NCBI GenBank assembly: GCA_017557185.1
Contig: JAFZAP010000114.1
Location: 55,809 to 119,808, forward strand
Length of the DNA stretch: 64,000 bases
Source of the DNA: Prevotella sp.
GTDB taxonomy: Bacteria; Bacteroidota; Bacteroidia; Bacteroidales; Bacteroidaceae
Direction: 5' to 3'
Position numbers and translations under genes: made by a program
The notes under the pieces: model-generated
Database searches by the model: none
Told to the model about the DNA's origin: nothing
Seen by the model: only the letters and a program-made list of their open reading frames with translations
In this document: in pieces, positions 42,149 through 59,414 of the stretch
Numbering within the stretch: position 1 is the stretch's first letter
Layout: every line of letters starts with the position of its first letter

Positions 42149-43666
42149 ATGCTAAACAACAACGACCTCCAACAGATTGCCTCACGCGGCATCACCCCTG
42201 AGCAGGTGAATCATCAGCTCGAACAGTTCAAAACCGGATTCCCGTTCCTCCGCCTCGAGGCTGCCGCTTCCGTCGGCAACGGTGTGCTCGCTCCGTCGGC
42301 CGAAGAGCGCCAGCGCTACGTCGACCGCTGGAACCAGTACAAGGCCGAGGGCCATCAGATTGTGAAGTTCGTACCCGCCAGCGGTGCTGCGTCGCGCATG
42401 TTCAAGGATATGTTCGCCTTTGTCGATGCCGACTACGACACGCCGCAGACTCCCTTCGAGCGCGAATACTTCGACGGCATCCGGAAGTTCGCCTTCCACA
42501 AGGCTCTTTGCGAGAAGTGCCAGGCCAACGAGGGCAAGAAGCTCAAGACGCTGCTCGAAGAGGGAAACTACAAGGCTGTCGCCCGCCAGATGCTGGTGAA
42601 GGAAGGACTCAACTACGGTCAGCTGCCGAAGGGCCTGCTGCTGTTCCACAACTACGACGACGGTCCCCGCACCCCGATGGAGGAGCATCTCGTCGAGGCA
42701 GCCCTCTATGCTGCTTCCAATGGCGAGGCCAACGTCCACTTCACCGTGTCGCACGACCATCTGGAGCTCTTCAAGGCGAAGGTTGCCGAGAAGGCAGGGA
42801 AGTATGCTGAGAAATACGGCGTGAAGTTCAACATCTCGTTCAGCGAGCAGAAGCCGTCCACCGACACCATCGCCGCCAATCCCGACGGCACGCCCTTCCG
42901 GCAGGACGACGGTTCGCTGCTGTTCCGTCCCGGTGGTCACGGTGCGCTCATCGAGAACCTCAACGAGATTGCTGCCGACGTGGTGTTCATCAAGAACATC
43001 GACAACGTGGTGCCCGACCGTCTGAAGGAGCCCACCGTCGAGTACAAGCAGCTCCTGGCAGGCATCCTCATATCGTTGCAGGAGCGCGCATTCGAGTATC
43101 TGCGCCTGCTCGACACCGGCAGCTATTCCCATGCCCAGCTCCAGGACATCATCCGCTTCGTGCAGCGCGACCTCTGCTGCCGCAAGCCCGACATCAAGCA
43201 GTTGGAGGATGCCGACCTCGTCATCTACCTGCGCCGCAAGCTCAACCGCCCGATGCGTGTCTGCGGTGTGGTGAAGAACGTCGGCGAGCCCGGTGGCGGT
43301 CCGTTCCTCACCTACAACTCCGACGGCACCGTGTCGCTGCAGATCCTCGAGAGTTCGCAGATCGACAAGAAGAACGAGGAGTACATGCGCATGTTCACCG
43401 AGGGCACACACTTCAATCCCGTCGACCTCGTCTGTGCAACGCGCGACTACAAGGGCAACGCCTTCCATCTGCCCGACTTCGTCGACCCGCTCACGGGCTT
43501 CATCTCGCAGAAGTCGAAGAACGGCCGCGAGCTGCAGGCTCTCGAGCTGCCCGGACTCTGGAACGGTGCCATGAGCAACTGGTCCACCGTCTTCGTCGAG
43601 GTGCCCCTCTCCACCTTCAACCCTGTCAAGACCGTCAACGACCTGCTCCGCGAGCAGCATCAGTAA
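42149..43666 (+). CDS. DUF4301 family protein, putative UDP-sugar pyrophosphorylase-like
   Basis: 505 residues, full length for DUF4301, a Bacteroidetes family without assigned function. Two segments look like nucleotidyltransferases of the UDPGP type: VKFVPASGAASRMFKDM (near residues 75-90), like the nucleotide-binding loop, and GGHGALIENL...IKNIDNVVPDRL (near 265-300), like the GHGD...NxDN region that binds sugar and metal. No signal peptide. It is the first gene before a galacturonokinase-like kinase, an NTP transferase and a UDP-GlcA epimerase, which fits a sugar-1-phosphate uridylyltransferase. The function is inferred, the family call is firm. A stable hairpin separates it from the kinase. 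Confidence 0.88.
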   Translation: MLNNNDLQQIASRGITPEQVNHQLEQFKTGFPFLRLEAAASVGNGVLAPSAEERQRYVDRWNQYKAEGHQIVKFVPASGAASRMFKDMFAFVDADYDTPQTPFEREYFDGIRKFAFHKALCEKCQANEGKKLKTLLEEGNYKAVARQMLVKEGLNYGQLPKGLLLFHNYDDGPRTPMEEHLVEAALYAASNGEANVHFTVSHDHLELFKAKVAEKAGKYAEKYGVKFNISFSEQKPSTDTIAANPDGTPFRQDDGSLLFRPGGHGALIENLNEIAADVVFIKNIDNVVPDRLKEPTVEYKQLLAGILISLQERAFEYLRLLDTGSYSHAQLQDIIRFVQRDLCCRKPDIKQLEDADLVIYLRRKLNRPMRVCGVVKNVGEPGGGPFLTYNSDGTVSLQILESSQIDKKNEEYMRMFTEGTHFNPVDLVCATRDYKGNAFHLPDFVDPLTGFISQKSKNGRELQALELPGLWNGAMSNWSTVFVEVPLSTFNPVKTVNDLLREQHQ

Positions 43667-43708
43667 AGAAGTGTCCCGTCTGTTGCCGTCACAGCATCCA
43701 GTCCCGTC

Positions 43709-43729
43709 TGTTGCTGTACCACAGCAACA
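43709..43729 (+). promoter_or_regulatory. Hairpin between DUF4301 and the kinase
   Basis: TGTTGCTGT / ACAGCAACA is a 9-bp stem with a 3-nt loop, 20 nt before the kinase start and without a T-run. A direct repeat GTCCCGTCTGTTGC at 43673 and 43701 (28 bp apart) precedes it. Possibly an mRNA-processing or stability element. Confidence 0.5.
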
Positions 43730-43749
43730 ATATCCCCCAAATTCAATCA

Positions 43750-44967
43750 ATGAACAACCATTCTTTTGAAGAACTCTTCCAGGCGTATCGCACCTTCTTC
43801 GGGAAGGGCGATGCGCTCTATCAGTTATTCTCGCCCTATCGCATCTGCCCGCTCGGCGCGCATGTGGACCATCAGCACGGCCTCGTGACGGGCTTCGCCT
43901 TCAACAGCGGCATCGACTTCCTCTTCTCCGAGACCACGACGGGAAAGGTCGAGATGTGCTCGCTGTCGTTCGAGGGCCTGATGACGTTCAACGTCCAGCG
44001 GCCCGTCGACGAGAAGCAGAACAACTGGGGCGACTACCTGCGCGGTGCCGTGTGGGCGCTGCAGAAGGACTACACGCTGAAGAACGGCGTGCGCGGAGTC
44101 GTCAAGGGCTCCATGCCCATCGGCGGACTCTCATCGTCGGCGGCGCTGCTGTGCGGCTTCGTGATGGCCATCGACAAGGTCAACCATCTCGGACTCGACA
44201 AGCTGCAGGTCATCCATTATGCGTCGCAGGCGGAACGCGAGTACGTCGGACTGCGCAACGGCATCCTCGACCAGGCATGCGTTGTGCTCTGCGAGTCCGA
44301 CAAGCTGCTCTACCTCGACACCGAGACGTCCGACTACGACCTCATTCCCTTCGGCCAGAACCTCAAGGGCGACGTGCCGCGCAAGCTGCCGTTCCGGCTG
44401 GGCATCTTCTTCTCGGGTGTCACCCGCAAGCTCACGGGTACCGACTACAATCTGCGCGTGTCGGAATGCAAGACCGCTGCCTGGATCATGCAGGCCTACG
44501 AGGATATCCACCTCCGTGAACTCAGCGACACCTGTCTGCGCGATGTCCCGCAGGAACTCTTCTCCAAGCACGCCGACCGGATGCCCGAGCGCTTCGCCCG
44601 TCGCGCCCGCCATTTCTATTCCGAGTGCGAACGCGTGAAGGCTGGCGTCGAGGCATGGAAGAACGGAGACATCCACCAGTTCGGACAGCTCGTCTTCGAG
44701 AGCTGCGAGAGCTCCATGAACAACTACGAGTGCGGCTCGCCCGAGCTCATTGCGCTCTATCAGATCATGCGGCGCTCCAACGGCATCTATGGCGGACGCT
44801 TCAGCGGAGCGGGCTTCAAGGGTGCTTGCATCGCACTCGTCGATCCCGCCTGCGAGGAGGAGATCCGCCGCGAGGTCACCAAGGCCTATCTGGCTGAGTA
44901 TCCGCAGTATCGCAACAGCTTCGAGATCTTCTTCTGCGACCCCGCCGACGGCGTCGACTTCATGTAA
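43750..44967 (+). CDS. GHMP sugar-1-kinase, galacturonokinase-like
   Basis: 405 residues from the ATG at 43750 (an upstream frame to 43711 crosses the hairpin). GHMP motif 1 is SPYRICPLGAHVDHQHG (residues 28-44), where galactokinases have APGRVNLIGEHTDY. The Glu of GalK is replaced by Ala. This SPYRICPLGAHxDHQ form is what I recall from plant galacturonic acid kinases, as are WGDYLRGAVWAL, GLSSSAAL and YVGLRNGILDQ. Motif 3 is GGRFSGAGFKG. The expected reaction is D-galacturonate + ATP to GalA-1-phosphate. The neighbours (putative pyrophosphorylases and a UDP-GlcA epimerase) fit this. Plain galactokinase activity is less likely. Confidence 0.85.
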   Translation: MNNHSFEELFQAYRTFFGKGDALYQLFSPYRICPLGAHVDHQHGLVTGFAFNSGIDFLFSETTTGKVEMCSLSFEGLMTFNVQRPVDEKQNNWGDYLRGAVWALQKDYTLKNGVRGVVKGSMPIGGLSSSAALLCGFVMAIDKVNHLGLDKLQVIHYASQAEREYVGLRNGILDQACVVLCESDKLLYLDTETSDYDLIPFGQNLKGDVPRKLPFRLGIFFSGVTRKLTGTDYNLRVSECKTAAWIMQAYEDIHLRELSDTCLRDVPQELFSKHADRMPERFARRARHFYSECERVKAGVEAWKNGDIHQFGQLVFESCESSMNNYECGSPELIALYQIMRRSNGIYGGRFSGAGFKGACIALVDPACEEEIRREVTKAYLAEYPQYRNSFEIFFCDPADGVDFM

Positions 44968-44982
44968 TCATCCCGCTATCCG

Positions 44983-45753
44983 ATGAAGAACGTAATCATT
45001 GCCGCAGGATATGCCACGCGCCTCTATCCGCTCACCGAGAACTTCCCGAAGCCGCTGCTGCAGATAGGGGAGAGCACCATCCTCGACCGCATGCTCGACG
45101 ACCTCGACGGCATCGCCGACATCTCCGAGCACATCGTCGTCACCAATCATAAGTTCGCCTATATCTTCCGCGAATGGGCGCAGCGACGCATGCAGCAGCC
45201 CGCCGCCAAGCCCATCGTCATCATCGACGACGGCACCTCCACCAACGACACGCGACTCGGAGCCGTGCGCGACCTGCTGCTGGCTCTCGAACGCCGGCAC
45301 ATCGACGACGATGTGATGGTGCTCGCTGCCGACAACATCCTCGACTTCTCGTTCCAGGGATTCGTCGACTACTTCCGCCAGAAGCAGACAAGCATCATCA
45401 TGTGTCACCACGAACCCGAGCTCTACCGCCTGCAGCGCACGGGCGTCATCGCCGTCGACGACGACATGCGCGTGCTGCTCATGCAGGAGAAACCCGCACA
45501 GCCCGTCAGCCATTGGGCGGTGCCACCTTTCTATATATATAAGCGCAGCGACCTCCCCCTCATCCGCGACTGCCTGAACCACGGCTGTGGCTACGATGCC
45601 CCCGGCAATCTCGCCCACTACCTCGCCGACGTCACCACCCTCCACGCATGGCCCATGCCCGGCCACCGCTTCGACATCGGCTCCCTCGACAGCTATGAGG
45701 AGGCGAGGAGAAACCCACCCCCAACCCCTCCCGAGGGGAGTGGAGCCTTATAA
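44983..45753 (+). CDS. Sugar-phosphate nucleotidyltransferase
   Basis: 256 residues. The GT-A nucleotidyltransferase start is MKNVIIAAGYATRLYPLTENFPKPLLQIG (G-x-x-TRL-x-PLT, then KPLL), with LAADNILDFSF as the metal-binding centre and RFDIGSLDSYEEA near the end. No left-handed beta-helix follows, so it is the short transferase type. It would join NTP to a sugar-1-phosphate; the sugar is unknown, but GalA-1-P from the upstream kinase is a candidate. It begins 15 bp after the kinase stop. The last ~13 residues (NPPPTPPEGSGAL) are encoded by a palindromic repeat and are probably not part of the fold. Confidence 0.87.
   Translation: MKNVIIAAGYATRLYPLTENFPKPLLQIGESTILDRMLDDLDGIADISEHIVVTNHKFAYIFREWAQRRMQQPAAKPIVIIDDGTSTNDTRLGAVRDLLLALERRHIDDDVMVLAADNILDFSFQGFVDYFRQKQTSIIMCHHEPELYRLQRTGVIAVDDDMRVLLMQEKPAQPVSHWAVPPFYIYKRSDLPLIRDCLNHGCGYDAPGNLAHYLADVTTLHAWPMPGHRFDIGSLDSYEEARRNPPPTPPEGSGAL
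45715..45746 (-). repeat. GC-rich palindromic element forming the 3' end of the NTP transferase gene
   Basis: Minus-strand reading: CACTCCCCTCGGGAGGGG then TTGGGGGTGGGTT. It supplies the terminal codons and lies just before the stop (45751-45753). Confidence 0.7.
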
Positions 45754-45818
45754 GCCCTGCGGCGCAGTGTAAAGGTGCAAGAGCGCAAGTAGTCGAGGAA
45801 GTTTTTTTTCGGTTTTTT

Positions 45819-45942
45819 CCGCTGTTGCGGCTGAGTTTTGGCTCAAAACCGTGATGTGCTTGCGGGCTGTGCAAAAGCTTGCTTTTAAGCACAAGACCGA
45901 AAGGACAGCACGTCAGGTCGAAGACCGCAGCCGGAACAGCGG
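45819..45942 (+). other. Highly structured RNA candidate upstream of the epimerase gene
   Basis: Outer arms CCGCTGTTGCGGCTG (45819-45833) and CAGCCGGAACAGCGG (45928-45942) pair over 15 bp with one mismatch. Inside are GTTTT/AAAAC and a stem TGTGC-AAAGC/GCTTT-GCACA (45868-45893). TGTTTTATATGTTTTTTT follows. It may be a leader RNA, a small RNA with terminator, or a remnant element. No protein frame fits. Confidence 0.55.
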
Positions 45943-45993
45943 TGTTTTATATGTTTTTTTCGGAATTAAATATAGAATTTAAAATATATTGTT

Positions 45994-47088
45994 ATGAAAA
46001 TACTAGTAACAGGAGCAGCGGGTTTCATCGGGTCGAAACTCATGTGGATGCTCGCCCAGCGCGGTGACGACGTCGTCGGCATCGACAAAATCAACGACTA
46101 CTACGACCCGCGCCTCAAATACGGCCGCCTCCGCGAATTCGGTATCAACATCCCAGCGACCGATGAATTAGGCTCAACTGACTCCCTCCCCCTTTGGGGA
46201 GGGCAGGGGTGGGGCTCCTCCTCCCTCCCTACGGGGGAGGGGCAGGGGTGGGGCTCCTGCTCCTTTTATCGCATGTCCATCGACGACAAACCTGCCCTCG
46301 ATGCACTCTTCGAGCGCGAGCACTTCCAGAAGGTCGTCAACCTCGCCGCGCAGGCGGGAGTCCGCTACAGCATCACCAATCCCTATGCCTATCTGCAGAG
46401 CAACCTCGTCGGCTTCCTCAACATCCTCGAGGCGTGTCGCCACTACGGTGTCGAGCACCTCGTCTATGCGTCGTCCAGCTCCGTCTATGGCATGAACGAG
46501 AAAGTTCCCTATAGCGAGGACGACAAGGTCGTGACACCCGTCAGCCTCTATGCCGCCACGAAGAAGAGCAACGAGCTCATGGCGCACGCCTACAGCAAGC
46601 TCTACGGCTTCGCCACCACCGGCCTCCGCTATTTCACCGTCTATGGCCCCTGGGGACGTCCCGACATGTCGCCGATGCTCTTCGCCAACGCCATCAGCCA
46701 GGGAAAGCCCATCAAGGTGTTCAACAACGGCGACATGATCCGCGACTTCACATATATCGACGACATCGTCGAGGGCACCATCTGCGTCATCGACCACCAG
46801 CCGGTAGCCTCGCAGTGCGAGCACGGAGTACCCTACAAGGTCTATAACATCGGGTGCAGCCATCCCGTACGCCTCATGGACTTCATCTCAGAAATCGAAC
46901 AGGCCTACGGCCGTCCTGCCGAGAAGATCTTCCTCCCCATGCAGCCGGGAGATGTCTATCAGACCAATGCCGATACCACAAAGCTCGAAACGGAGTGCGG
47001 CTACAAACCCCACTGGTCCCTCCACGACGGCATCCAGAAATTCATGGAGTGGTATAAGTCGGACAAGAATCCGCTCAGGAGTGAGTAA
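45994..47088 (+). CDS. UDP-glucuronate 4-epimerase type NAD-dependent epimerase
   Basis: 364 residues, extended SDR. The NAD motif is TGAAGFIGSK, then VVGIDKINDYYDPRLKYGRL, a signature of UDP-glucuronate epimerases. AAQAGVRYSI, SSSSVYG and catalytic YAATK (Tyr/Lys) follow, and TVYGPWGRPDM is also typical. The predicted reaction is UDP-GlcA to UDP-GalA and back. Residues about 61-91 (SLPLWGGQGWGSSSLPTGEG...) are not family sequence: two copies of a GC-rich palindromic repeat are read through in frame at a variable loop between the cofactor part and YRMSIDD. The core motifs are intact, so activity may survive. Last gene of the sugar-nucleotide cluster. Confidence 0.9.
   Translation: MKILVTGAAGFIGSKLMWMLAQRGDDVVGIDKINDYYDPRLKYGRLREFGINIPATDELGSTDSLPLWGGQGWGSSSLPTGEGQGWGSCSFYRMSIDDKPALDALFEREHFQKVVNLAAQAGVRYSITNPYAYLQSNLVGFLNILEACRHYGVEHLVYASSSSVYGMNEKVPYSEDDKVVTPVSLYAATKKSNELMAHAYSKLYGFATTGLRYFTVYGPWGRPDMSPMLFANAISQGKPIKVFNNGDMIRDFTYIDDIVEGTICVIDHQPVASQCEHGVPYKVYNIGCSHPVRLMDFISEIEQAYGRPAEKIFLPMQPGDVYQTNADTTKLETECGYKPHWSLHDGIQKFMEWYKSDKNPLRSE
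46181..46216 (+). repeat. GC-rich palindromic element, copy 1 inside the epimerase gene
   Basis: CTCCCTCCCCCTTTGGGGAG then GGCAGGGGTGGGGCT. It has the same design as the intergenic copy at 52965 and is translated as SLPLWGGQGWG. Confidence 0.85.
46220..46257 (+). repeat. GC-rich palindromic element, copy 2 inside the epimerase gene
   Basis: CTCCCTCCCTACGGGGGAGG then GGCAGGGGTGGGGCTCC, nearly identical to the copy at 52965-52998. It is translated as SLPTGEGQGWG. Confidence 0.88.
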
Positions 47089-57761: not shown

Positions 57762-59414
57762 TTATTTCACCGTGAAGACAACGATGCTCTTCGGGGGCAG
57801 TTGAACGGTCAGCTTGCCGTTCTTTCCCTTGCCGAATTCAATCTTCAGCGGCTGCTTCTTGTTGGCGGTCGGCACGCTCACTTCCTTGCCAGGCTTGCTG
57901 TTCGAGAACTCCACAGGTGCTACGCGAGCGGGGTTGTCGAAGTCGTTGTAGGCGCGGATGTCGGCAGTGCATAACATACTGCCGTTCAATATTTTACCCG
58001 TTATTCCTTCGAGTGCTACTTCCTGCGCTTTGTCGAGCGACACATTCGACAAAGAAACCACGATGCTGCCATCCTGAGTCTTTGCTGCCGAAGCGCTGAC
58101 GAGCGGCAACGGGCGATAGCCGTTCTCGCTGCTGGCATCCATCTGCTTGCGCATGTCGTGGCGAACCTTCATCACATCGCACTTCAGGTCGAGTGGGAGA
58201 TAGGTGGCCTCCTGGAACGGGGTGTACATGCGGAAGACGTGATAGGTAGGCGTGAGCACCATATGTCCGCCGTCCTTCGTGTCGGTGAGAATCATCGACT
58301 GCAGCACGTTCACCACTTGAGCGATGTTGGCCATGCGGATTCTGTCGCAGTGACGATGGAAGATGTTCAGCGACAGCGCAGCCACGAAGGCATCGCGCAT
58401 GGTGTTCTGCTGGAACAGATGTCCCTTCACGGTTCCCGGCTCCTCGTCCCACCATGTTCCCCATTCGTCGACGAGCAGGCCGATTTGCTTCTTCGGGTCC
58501 TTCTCGTCCATGATGGCACAGTGCTTCTTGATGACATCCTCAATCTCGAGACACTTGCCCAGCGTCCAGTAGTATTCGTCGTTATCATAGACAAGCGCCG
58601 AGCCTTTCGAGCCGTCCCAGCCGCTCACGGTGTAGTAGTGGAGCGACACGCCGTTCATCTGATGTCCAATCCGATCCATCAGCACGCGCGTCCAGTTGTA
58701 GTCGTAGTCGGTAGCACCCGAGGCGATCTTGTAGAGTTCGTTGCCGTCGTAGTTGCGGCAGTAGGTCTGATAGCGGCGATAGAGGTCGGCATAGTATTCC
58801 GGGCGCATGTTTCCACCGCAGCCCCACGACTCATTACCTACGCCGAGGTATTTCACCTTCCACGCCTTGTCGCGGCCGTTCTGGCGGCGAAGCTTTGCCA
58901 TCGGCGTGTCGCCGTCGCTGGTCATGTATTCCACCCATTTGGCCATTTCCTCGACCGTTCCGCTTCCCACGTTACCGCTGATGTAGGGTTCGCAGCCGAT
59001 GAGCTCGCAGAGGTTCAGGAATTCGTGGGTGCCGAACGAGTTGTCCTCGATGGTGCCGCCCCAGTTGTTGTTCTGCATCTTGGGACGCTGCGAATACGGA
59101 CCGATACCGTCACGCCAATGGTATTCGTCGGCGAAGCATCCGCCCGGCCAGCGCAGCACGGGAACTTTCAAGTCCTGCAGTGCTTTCAGGACGTCGTTGC
59201 GATAGCCCTGCGTGTTGGGAATCGGTGACTCCTTGCCAACCCACAGACCACCATAGATGCAAGTTCCGAGGTGCTCAGCGAACTGTCCGTAGATTTCCTT
59301 GTGAATTTTCTGTGCGCCATTGTCGTTGAGAATGGTCACGGTTGCATCCTGAGCACTTGCCGATGCGGCCATCATCGTGCCCATTACGATTGTCAATAAC
59401 TGCTTTTTCATCAT
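57762..59414 (-). CDS. Alpha-L-arabinofuranosidase, GH51 family
   Basis: 550 residues. Signal peptide ends ASASAQ. The GH51 hallmark [20 protein letters not shown] is at the N-terminus and [20 protein letters not shown] follows. Acid/base Glu195 is in [11 protein letters not shown] and nucleophile Glu317 in [10 protein letters not shown]. The C-terminal beta-sandwich completes the family layout. It releases alpha-L-arabinose from arabinan or arabinoxylan; the signal peptide indicates a periplasmic or surface location. Transcribed alone with a good promoter at 59448-59477 and a hairpin terminator downstream. Confidence 0.96.

Follow-up and report, generated by a model that had tools for sequence, protein, structure and literature searches.

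Galacturonate is the main sugar of pectin. Bacteria are usually described as degrading it through the UxaC route and as making UDP-galacturonate from UDP-glucose. Plants reportedly also salvage the free sugar: a galacturonic acid kinase, said to have been described by Yang et al. in 2009, acts there together with a UDP-sugar pyrophosphorylase (USP), and we take a motif of the PYRICPLGAHxDH type to be the mark of this kinase. UDP-sugar pyrophosphorylases have been noted in a few bacterial species (PMC6329318), so that salvage enzymes for UDP-sugars are, in themselves, no novelty among bacteria. The subject here is a cluster of three genes, for a GHMP kinase, a short NTP-transferase and an epimerase, in a 64,000-nucleotide stretch of DNA from Prevotella sp. 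(the window; contig JAFZAP010000114.1, genome G000, 3.35 Mb). The three genes quite probably form a uronate-salvage module that would convert galacturonate to galacturonate-1-phosphate and then to UDP-galacturonate, interconvertible with UDP-glucuronate, for surface polysaccharides; the best reading is a bacterial variant of the plant salvage route.

The kinase and its sugar-site signature

The kinase has both the N-terminal and the C-terminal domain of the GHMP kinase superfamily (Pfam), and its best solved-structure matches are the galactokinases 2cz9, 1s4e and 1pie. Against the three best NCBIfam galactokinase models it scores 217, 212 and 195 bits for cut-offs of 443, 385 and 227, respectively, and it stays under the cut-off of every NCBIfam galactokinase model listed; since the nearest named models are nonetheless galactokinases, naming the gene after its nearest model would mislead. 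The galactokinase signature GR[VI]NxIGEHxDY is absent, and the sugar-site motif reads PYRICPLGAHVDH. An initial annotation of the window had pointed to the motif SPYRICPLGAHVDHQ in this gene; the motif is real, and its core is kept, as PYR[VI]CP[LI]GAHxDH, in all 14 kinases of this new type found among 36 genomes of the genus, the window's own included. By contrast, all 18 other GHMP kinases examined carry PGR[VI]NxIGEH[TI]DY, and one of them is a separate, second kinase of the genome from which the window comes. The Glu of the galactokinase GEHxDY is replaced by Ala in 14 of 14 new-type kinases of the genus, and the Ala, His and Asp of the signature are invariant, together with the Lys of the C-terminal glycine-rich motif, across 73 of 73 aligned kinases. 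The Glu presumably holds the 6-hydroxyl of galactose, and an Ala in its place would leave space for a carboxylate.

In a tree of 55 sequences, 18 galactokinases are separated with 100/100 support from 36 new-type kinases joined, on a long branch, by a provisional plant sequence; the 36 new-type kinases alone have 98/85 support, and the closest named relatives of the window kinase in the tree are Prevotella and Prevotellaceae records, as befits a Prevotella-like genome. The plant sequence, provisionally that of the Arabidopsis galacturonokinase, does not come from a database and serves as a lead only. With the window kinase and each of 10 sampled relatives it shares 36–41% identity (381–420 aligned columns), and with the genome's own galactokinase 25% (358 columns), both figures being those of this provisional sequence. 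Its residues 41, 250 and 368 are Ala, Tyr and Ala, reportedly the positions of published mutants.

Judged from its signature and its relatives, the kinase likely acts on galacturonate. It might instead act mainly on D-glucuronate or another hexuronate, or on several, in which case UDP-glucuronate would be formed first and the epimerase would then give UDP-galacturonate. Gene context alone cannot tell the two sugars apart, given an epimerase that interconverts both UDP-uronates; the grouping of the new kinases with the provisional plant sequence would speak for galacturonate. In zebrafish a glucuronokinase is joined in one protein to an NTP-transferase of bacterial type, and the tree legend of the paper that describes it lists a Prevotella and an Alistipes protein (PMC3938481, sections concerned), which favors glucuronate, yet the same sections call the Arabidopsis galacturonic acid kinase very different in sequence from glucuronokinase (PMC3938481). 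On balance, a kinase that works primarily on glucuronate or another hexuronate, or on several, is unlikely, and galacturonate remains our preferred substrate.

The kinase is also patchy in its distribution. An even sample of the order yields it in 9 of 393 genomes, the window's own among them, and in 6 of 206 genera. A phylum-wide search at E 1e-60, made to look beyond the Bacteroidales, gave matches in 2 of 395 genomes, the window's own and G294, and the G294 protein has the galactokinase motif.

The gene cluster and its conserved partners

Linkage was surveyed in 93 loci besides the window, 13 from genomes of the genus and 80 from named genomes, the latter being the best 80 of at least 572 relatives (E up to 1e-3). 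Of the 13 genus loci 12 have an NTP-transferase and 10 an epimerase, and of the 80 others 70 and 56, respectively; under uniform thresholds the NTP-transferase lies beside the kinase in 82 of 93 loci and the epimerase in 65, with both absent in 6 (the epimerase of L084, which ends at a contig edge, was counted in the 80-locus survey and dropped here). The order of the genes varies, kinase–NTP-transferase–epimerase, epimerase–kinase–NTP-transferase and NTP-transferase–epimerase–kinase occurring among others, and such reshuffling suggests that selection keeps the genes close to one another. A single metagenome-derived record among 101 loci (L062:5206-7011) has NTP-transferase and epimerase fused in an uninterrupted reading frame of 601 residues. 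The conserved unit is three genes, at times four with a dehydrogenase.

Beyond the loci themselves, 14 of 60 relatives have the kinase, and 13 of these also have the NTP-transferase (E up to 1e-50), whereas the other 46 all lack it (Fisher p = 2.7e-12, ignoring relatedness). It belongs to PF00483 and not to PF01704, of which the window's own genome has no match at E 0.001. The pyrophosphorylase of the module is most likely this short protein and not DUF4301, the product of the gene that precedes the kinase.

The initial annotation had included DUF4301, with its UDPGP-like segments, in a four-gene pathway; that DUF4301 is the pyrophosphorylase of such a pathway now looks extremely unlikely. The gene is adjacent, lies on the same strand and is remotely UDPGP-like. 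Of 39 DUF4301 members, 25 have a PF01704 match (E up to 1, the lowest 5.1e-5), each other foreign family reaches at most 3 members, and the GHG, NIDN and PVK residues are invariant in the 39; the window protein itself reaches E 0.064 (12.4 bits for a cut-off of 22), and a PF01704 search of genomes also matched the DUF4301 gene of G051 (1.4e-4). In a profile search of solved structures the first match is 2i5k, a UTP-glucose-1-phosphate uridylyltransferase, at E 0.44; its PVKT..DLL segment pairs at 10.8 bits, and the segment with GHG and N-x-DN pairs only in a separate piece at -2.1 bits. The UDPGP-like segments reported earlier thus hold up as weak remote similarity, and DUF4301 may belong, as a distant branch, to the UDPGP pyrophosphorylases. 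Nevertheless, it is a core gene, which 55 of 60 relatives have whether or not they carry the kinase, and it lies near the kinase in 0 of 13 genus loci and in 1 of 80 others, 5.6 kb off and on the opposite strand; the NTP-transferase, instead, tracks the kinase. Because it is widespread and near the kinase in only 1 of the 93 other loci, DUF4301 was rejected as a pathway member, and that it adjoins the module in the window is probably fortuitous. Of the four genes first expected to stay together in relatives, the kinase, the NTP-transferase and the epimerase do so and DUF4301 does not; the earlier idea of galacturonate salvage, with DUF4301 removed, is supported by linkage, by the kinase signature and by the association with dehydrogenase genes. 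DUF4301 was not found in the viral contigs searched. A relative without a DUF4301 match has a short UDPGP-family match (8.1e-5) with one internal stop at G005:C25:40864-41061 (L202).

The best Protein Data Bank match of the epimerase is 5u4q (6.9e-111), named dTDP-glucose 4,6-dehydratase by its depositors, followed by 6zl6 (1.6e-46), named only 'epimerase domain-containing', which we take to be the Bacillus cereus UDP-glucuronate 4-epimerase. The epimerase matches 6zl6 better than it does the listed solved UDP-glucose 4-epimerases, and alignments with 5u4q, 6zl6 and relatives show SSSSVYG, YAATK and FTVYGPWGRPDM to be conserved; together these matches and motifs bear out its earlier assignment to the UDP-glucuronate type. 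As in UDP-glucuronate 4-epimerases, so far as the source sections characterize them, there are the SDR Tyr-x-x-x-Lys and a Thr/Ser-Ser-Ser carboxylate site, and the decarboxylase Glu is lacking. The part of PMC7984243 on the carboxylate site describes Thr126, Ser127 and Ser128 for UDP-glucuronate 4-epimerase. Provided that 6zl6 is that enzyme, these residues align with Ser-Ser-Ser in the window protein.

This bears on a further alternative, a cluster of Leloir type in which an ordinary galactokinase, or one that has drifted, would work with an epimerase like GalE. The nearest solved structures and NCBIfam models of the kinase, and the nearest NCBIfam model of the epimerase, GalE (TIGR01179), would fit such a cluster, but GalE too stays below its cut-off (154 bits against 262), as the kinase does with its 217 bits against 443. 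Moreover, the sugar-site motif is altered in all 14 genus members found, a galactokinase-motif kinase is encoded elsewhere in the same genome, the epimerase is closer to 6zl6 than to the listed UDP-glucose 4-epimerases, and the partner genes include UDP-glucose-dehydrogenase-like ones; a galactokinase is therefore very improbable here.

In the window (Table 1), open reading frames and Pfam matches bear out four consecutive plus-strand genes, with a short NTP-transferase after the kinase, as first annotated. A divergent RelA/SpoT gene lies upstream of the four and a ComEC-like gene downstream. The kinase more likely starts at ATG 43750 than at TTG 43711; most comparisons used 43753-44964, without the Met, so that alignment residue numbers are one lower than those counted from it. 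Its stop is followed after 15 bases by the NTP-transferase start, and 240 bases separate the NTP-transferase from the epimerase. A presumed consensus pattern of Bacteroidales promoters occurs at 6 places in the window, none of them within or immediately ahead of the module.

Table 1. Features of the module and the adjoining gene in the window
Feature	Position	Strand	Matches and remarks
DUF4301 gene	42149-43666	+	PF14134 2.8e-238; adjoins the module, judged outside it
GHMP sugar-1-kinase, galacturonokinase-like	43750-44967	+	405 aa; PF00288 2.5e-14, PF08544 2.4e-9, PF10509 (GalKase_gal_bdg)
Short NTP_transferase, putative UTP:galacturonate-1-phosphate uridylyltransferase	44983-45753	+	PF00483 9.9e-25
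UDP-glucuronate/UDP-galacturonate 4-epimerase type SDR with in-frame repeat insert	45994-47088	+	PF01370 8.2e-55
G-rich palindromic repeat, in frame in the epimerase gene	46181-46261 (limits approximate)	+	2 repeat copies

The repeat insert is absent from the 9 relatives aligned, among which this stretch is variable, and with up to 2 mismatches allowed the repeat pattern occurs 66 times in the genome, against 0 for a reversed control. By eye, a C-rich sequence like the repeat also closes the NTP-transferase gene, near 45715-45745.

Two loci of relatives have features of their own. In L040, from genome G022 (81% complete), the new-type kinase gene (L040:9652-10794) sits between a CapD-like and a UDP-GlcNAc 2-epimerase gene, and the NTP-transferase is absent from both locus and genome. 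In L041 a short open reading frame (L041:9331-9699) separates the NTP-transferase gene from that of the kinase; it belongs to a family seen in 4 loci, and its product may be a four-helix-bundle protein.

The proposed pathway and its setting

In the proposed pathway, the GHMP kinase would use ATP to phosphorylate C1 of free D-galacturonate, probably derived from pectin, and the short NTP-transferase would convert galacturonate-1-phosphate and UTP to UDP-galacturonate and pyrophosphate. The epimerase would equilibrate UDP-galacturonate with UDP-glucuronate, and the UDP-uronates could supply glycosyltransferases that make surface polysaccharides. Directly observed are the genes with their conserved linkage and joint occurrence, the signature of the kinase and its separation from galactokinases, and the superfamily and motifs of the epimerase; which sugar and which nucleotide are used, and where the product goes, we infer. 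The module would run parallel to two other routes: the de novo route, whose UDP-glucose dehydrogenase is encoded in the cluster in some relatives and which would feed the same pool from glucose, and ordinary galacturonate breakdown via UxaC.

Those settings in relatives that are informative point to anabolism, with genes for nucleotide sugars and surface polysaccharides. Of the 93 loci, 26 contain UDP-glucose-dehydrogenase-like genes, which are of two distinct types, and in 23 such a gene shares the strand of the kinase and lies no more than 3.5 kb away; Bacteroides graminisolvens DSM 19988 (L071) has the order dehydrogenase, kinase, NTP-transferase, epimerase. The best NCBIfam models for the dehydrogenases scanned are UDP-glucose 6-dehydrogenases, whose cut-offs they do not reach; the only threshold that they pass is the one set for nucleotide-sugar dehydrogenases in general. 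The flanks in several relatives encode polysaccharide export, chain-length, CapD-like, flippase and glycosyltransferase families, and polysaccharide-type clusters or the main dehydrogenase cluster are seen in 43 of 93 loci.

The module might alternatively yield a different activated sugar, through another sugar-1-phosphate or nucleotide, with the epimerase an incidental neighbor. The loci with no epimerase nearby (28 of 93) and L040, with its CapD-like and UDP-GlcNAc 2-epimerase neighbors and no NTP-transferase, are what such a module might show, but the repeated linkage to UDP-glucose-dehydrogenase-like genes and to an epimerase of the UDP-glucuronate type, along with the one NTP-transferase–epimerase fusion, makes this quite improbable.

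The link to pectin is weaker than that to the NTP-transferase. Ignoring relatedness, the isomerase UxaC, with which ordinary galacturonate breakdown begins, is encoded by 13 of the 14 kinase-bearing genomes of the genus against 12 of the 22 others (p 0.025), and GH28, the polygalacturonase family, by 14 of 14 against 16 of 22 (p 0.06), with 6.2 GH28 matches per genome against 2.7 (p 0.0004); the window's own genome has 5. This enrichment suggests that the module is found mostly in pectin users, and UxaC in 13 of 14 kinase genomes suggests that the salvage route adds to galacturonate degradation and does not replace it. The initial annotation had also listed pectin-type genes in the window: an arabinofuranosidase is there (57762-59414), but GH78 and polygalacturonate-binding matches are absent from the window's open reading frames scanned, a subset of the total.

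Nor would salvage be the sole possible source of UDP-uronates. Of the 14 kinase-bearing genomes of the genus, 13 have a PF03721 match of roughly 1e-30 or stronger, and the notion of salvage as the only source is therefore not supported. G001, G006 and G008, with only the weaker kind of match, carry proteins that start like UDP-glucose dehydrogenase; the one of the three scanned, from G006 (L193), has a UDP-glucose 6-dehydrogenase as its best model and scores under its cut-off. In G015 (79% complete) the PF03721 match reaches only 4.2e-6.

Several observations weigh against galacturonate salvage for surface polysaccharides. The enzymes of this group are characterized here by their sequences, and the substrate and nucleotide of the NTP-transferase are deduced from its neighboring genes. 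The plant comparison depends on a provisional sequence that sits on a long branch, and the tree program flagged a risk of long-branch attraction; the role of Glu at galactose O6 is presumed. The NTP-transferase is missing in 11 of 93 loci and the epimerase in 28, of which contig ends explain some, and L040, L058 and L075 have neither gene within 15–21 kb. Among NCBIfam models the epimerase comes closest to GalE, and among solved structures to a chain deposited as dTDP-glucose 4,6-dehydratase. None of the counted polysaccharide or dehydrogenase clusters appears in 50 of 93 loci, and the identified genes that flank the module in the window are not polysaccharide genes. Finally, the distribution of the kinase is patchy (9 of 393 order-wide genomes), and 13 of 14 kinase-bearing genus genomes also have a strong UDP-glucose/GDP-mannose dehydrogenase family match.

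The broader proposition, that galacturonate of dietary pectin is built intact into the surface polysaccharides of rumen and gut Bacteroidales through a dedicated kinase, uridylyltransferase and epimerase operon, and that the bacterial kinase family shares a common origin with plant galacturonokinase, is tentative, and we give it somewhat less than even weight. If true, a salvage operon would tie dietary pectin directly to the coat of rumen and gut bacteria, a bacterial branch would join an enzyme family known from plants, and the short pyrophosphorylase would be useful for the production of UDP-galacturonate.

Comparison with known systems

As far as the searches reach, three things may be new: the group of bacterial kinases, a PF00483 transferase as their partner, and the clustering with an epimerase and a dehydrogenase. 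No report of a bacterial galacturonokinase was found in the literature searched, in which subscription journals were thinly covered, and prior reports or database assignments may exist.

The plant salvage route has the same proposed chemistry, from galacturonate via galacturonate-1-phosphate to UDP-galacturonate, and its kinase shares the PYRICPLGAHxDH motif, as judged from the provisional plant sequence. It differs in the second step, for which plants use USP, of the UDPGP family, and the bacterial module a short PF00483 NTP_transferase, and in that the bacterial genes are clustered with an epimerase of the UDP-glucuronate type and sometimes with a UDP-glucose-dehydrogenase-like gene.

Compared with bacterial and archaeal GalK, of which 2cz9, 1s4e and 1pie are the closest solved, the kinase has the same GHMP domains but GAHxDH in place of GEHxDY, a separate group in the tree and other neighbors. 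The epimerase conserves the catalytic and carboxylate-site motifs of UDP-glucuronate 4-epimerases such as Bacillus cereus UGAepi, MoeE5 and plant GAE, in so far as the source sections present them; the window copy differs by its in-frame repeat insert, and its closest solved chain, 5u4q, bears a different name.

The zebrafish bifunctional glucuronokinase/putative pyrophosphorylase likewise pairs a GHMP uronate kinase with a bacterial-type NTP-transferase, and thus offers a precedent for a uronate kinase with this kind of transferase; unlike the module, it is fused and specific for glucuronate, and its pyrophosphorylase activity is extremely low (PMC3938481, sections concerned). The Prevotella and Alistipes transferases appear as relatives in the tree legend of that paper, whose sections concerned state no role for them (PMC3938481).

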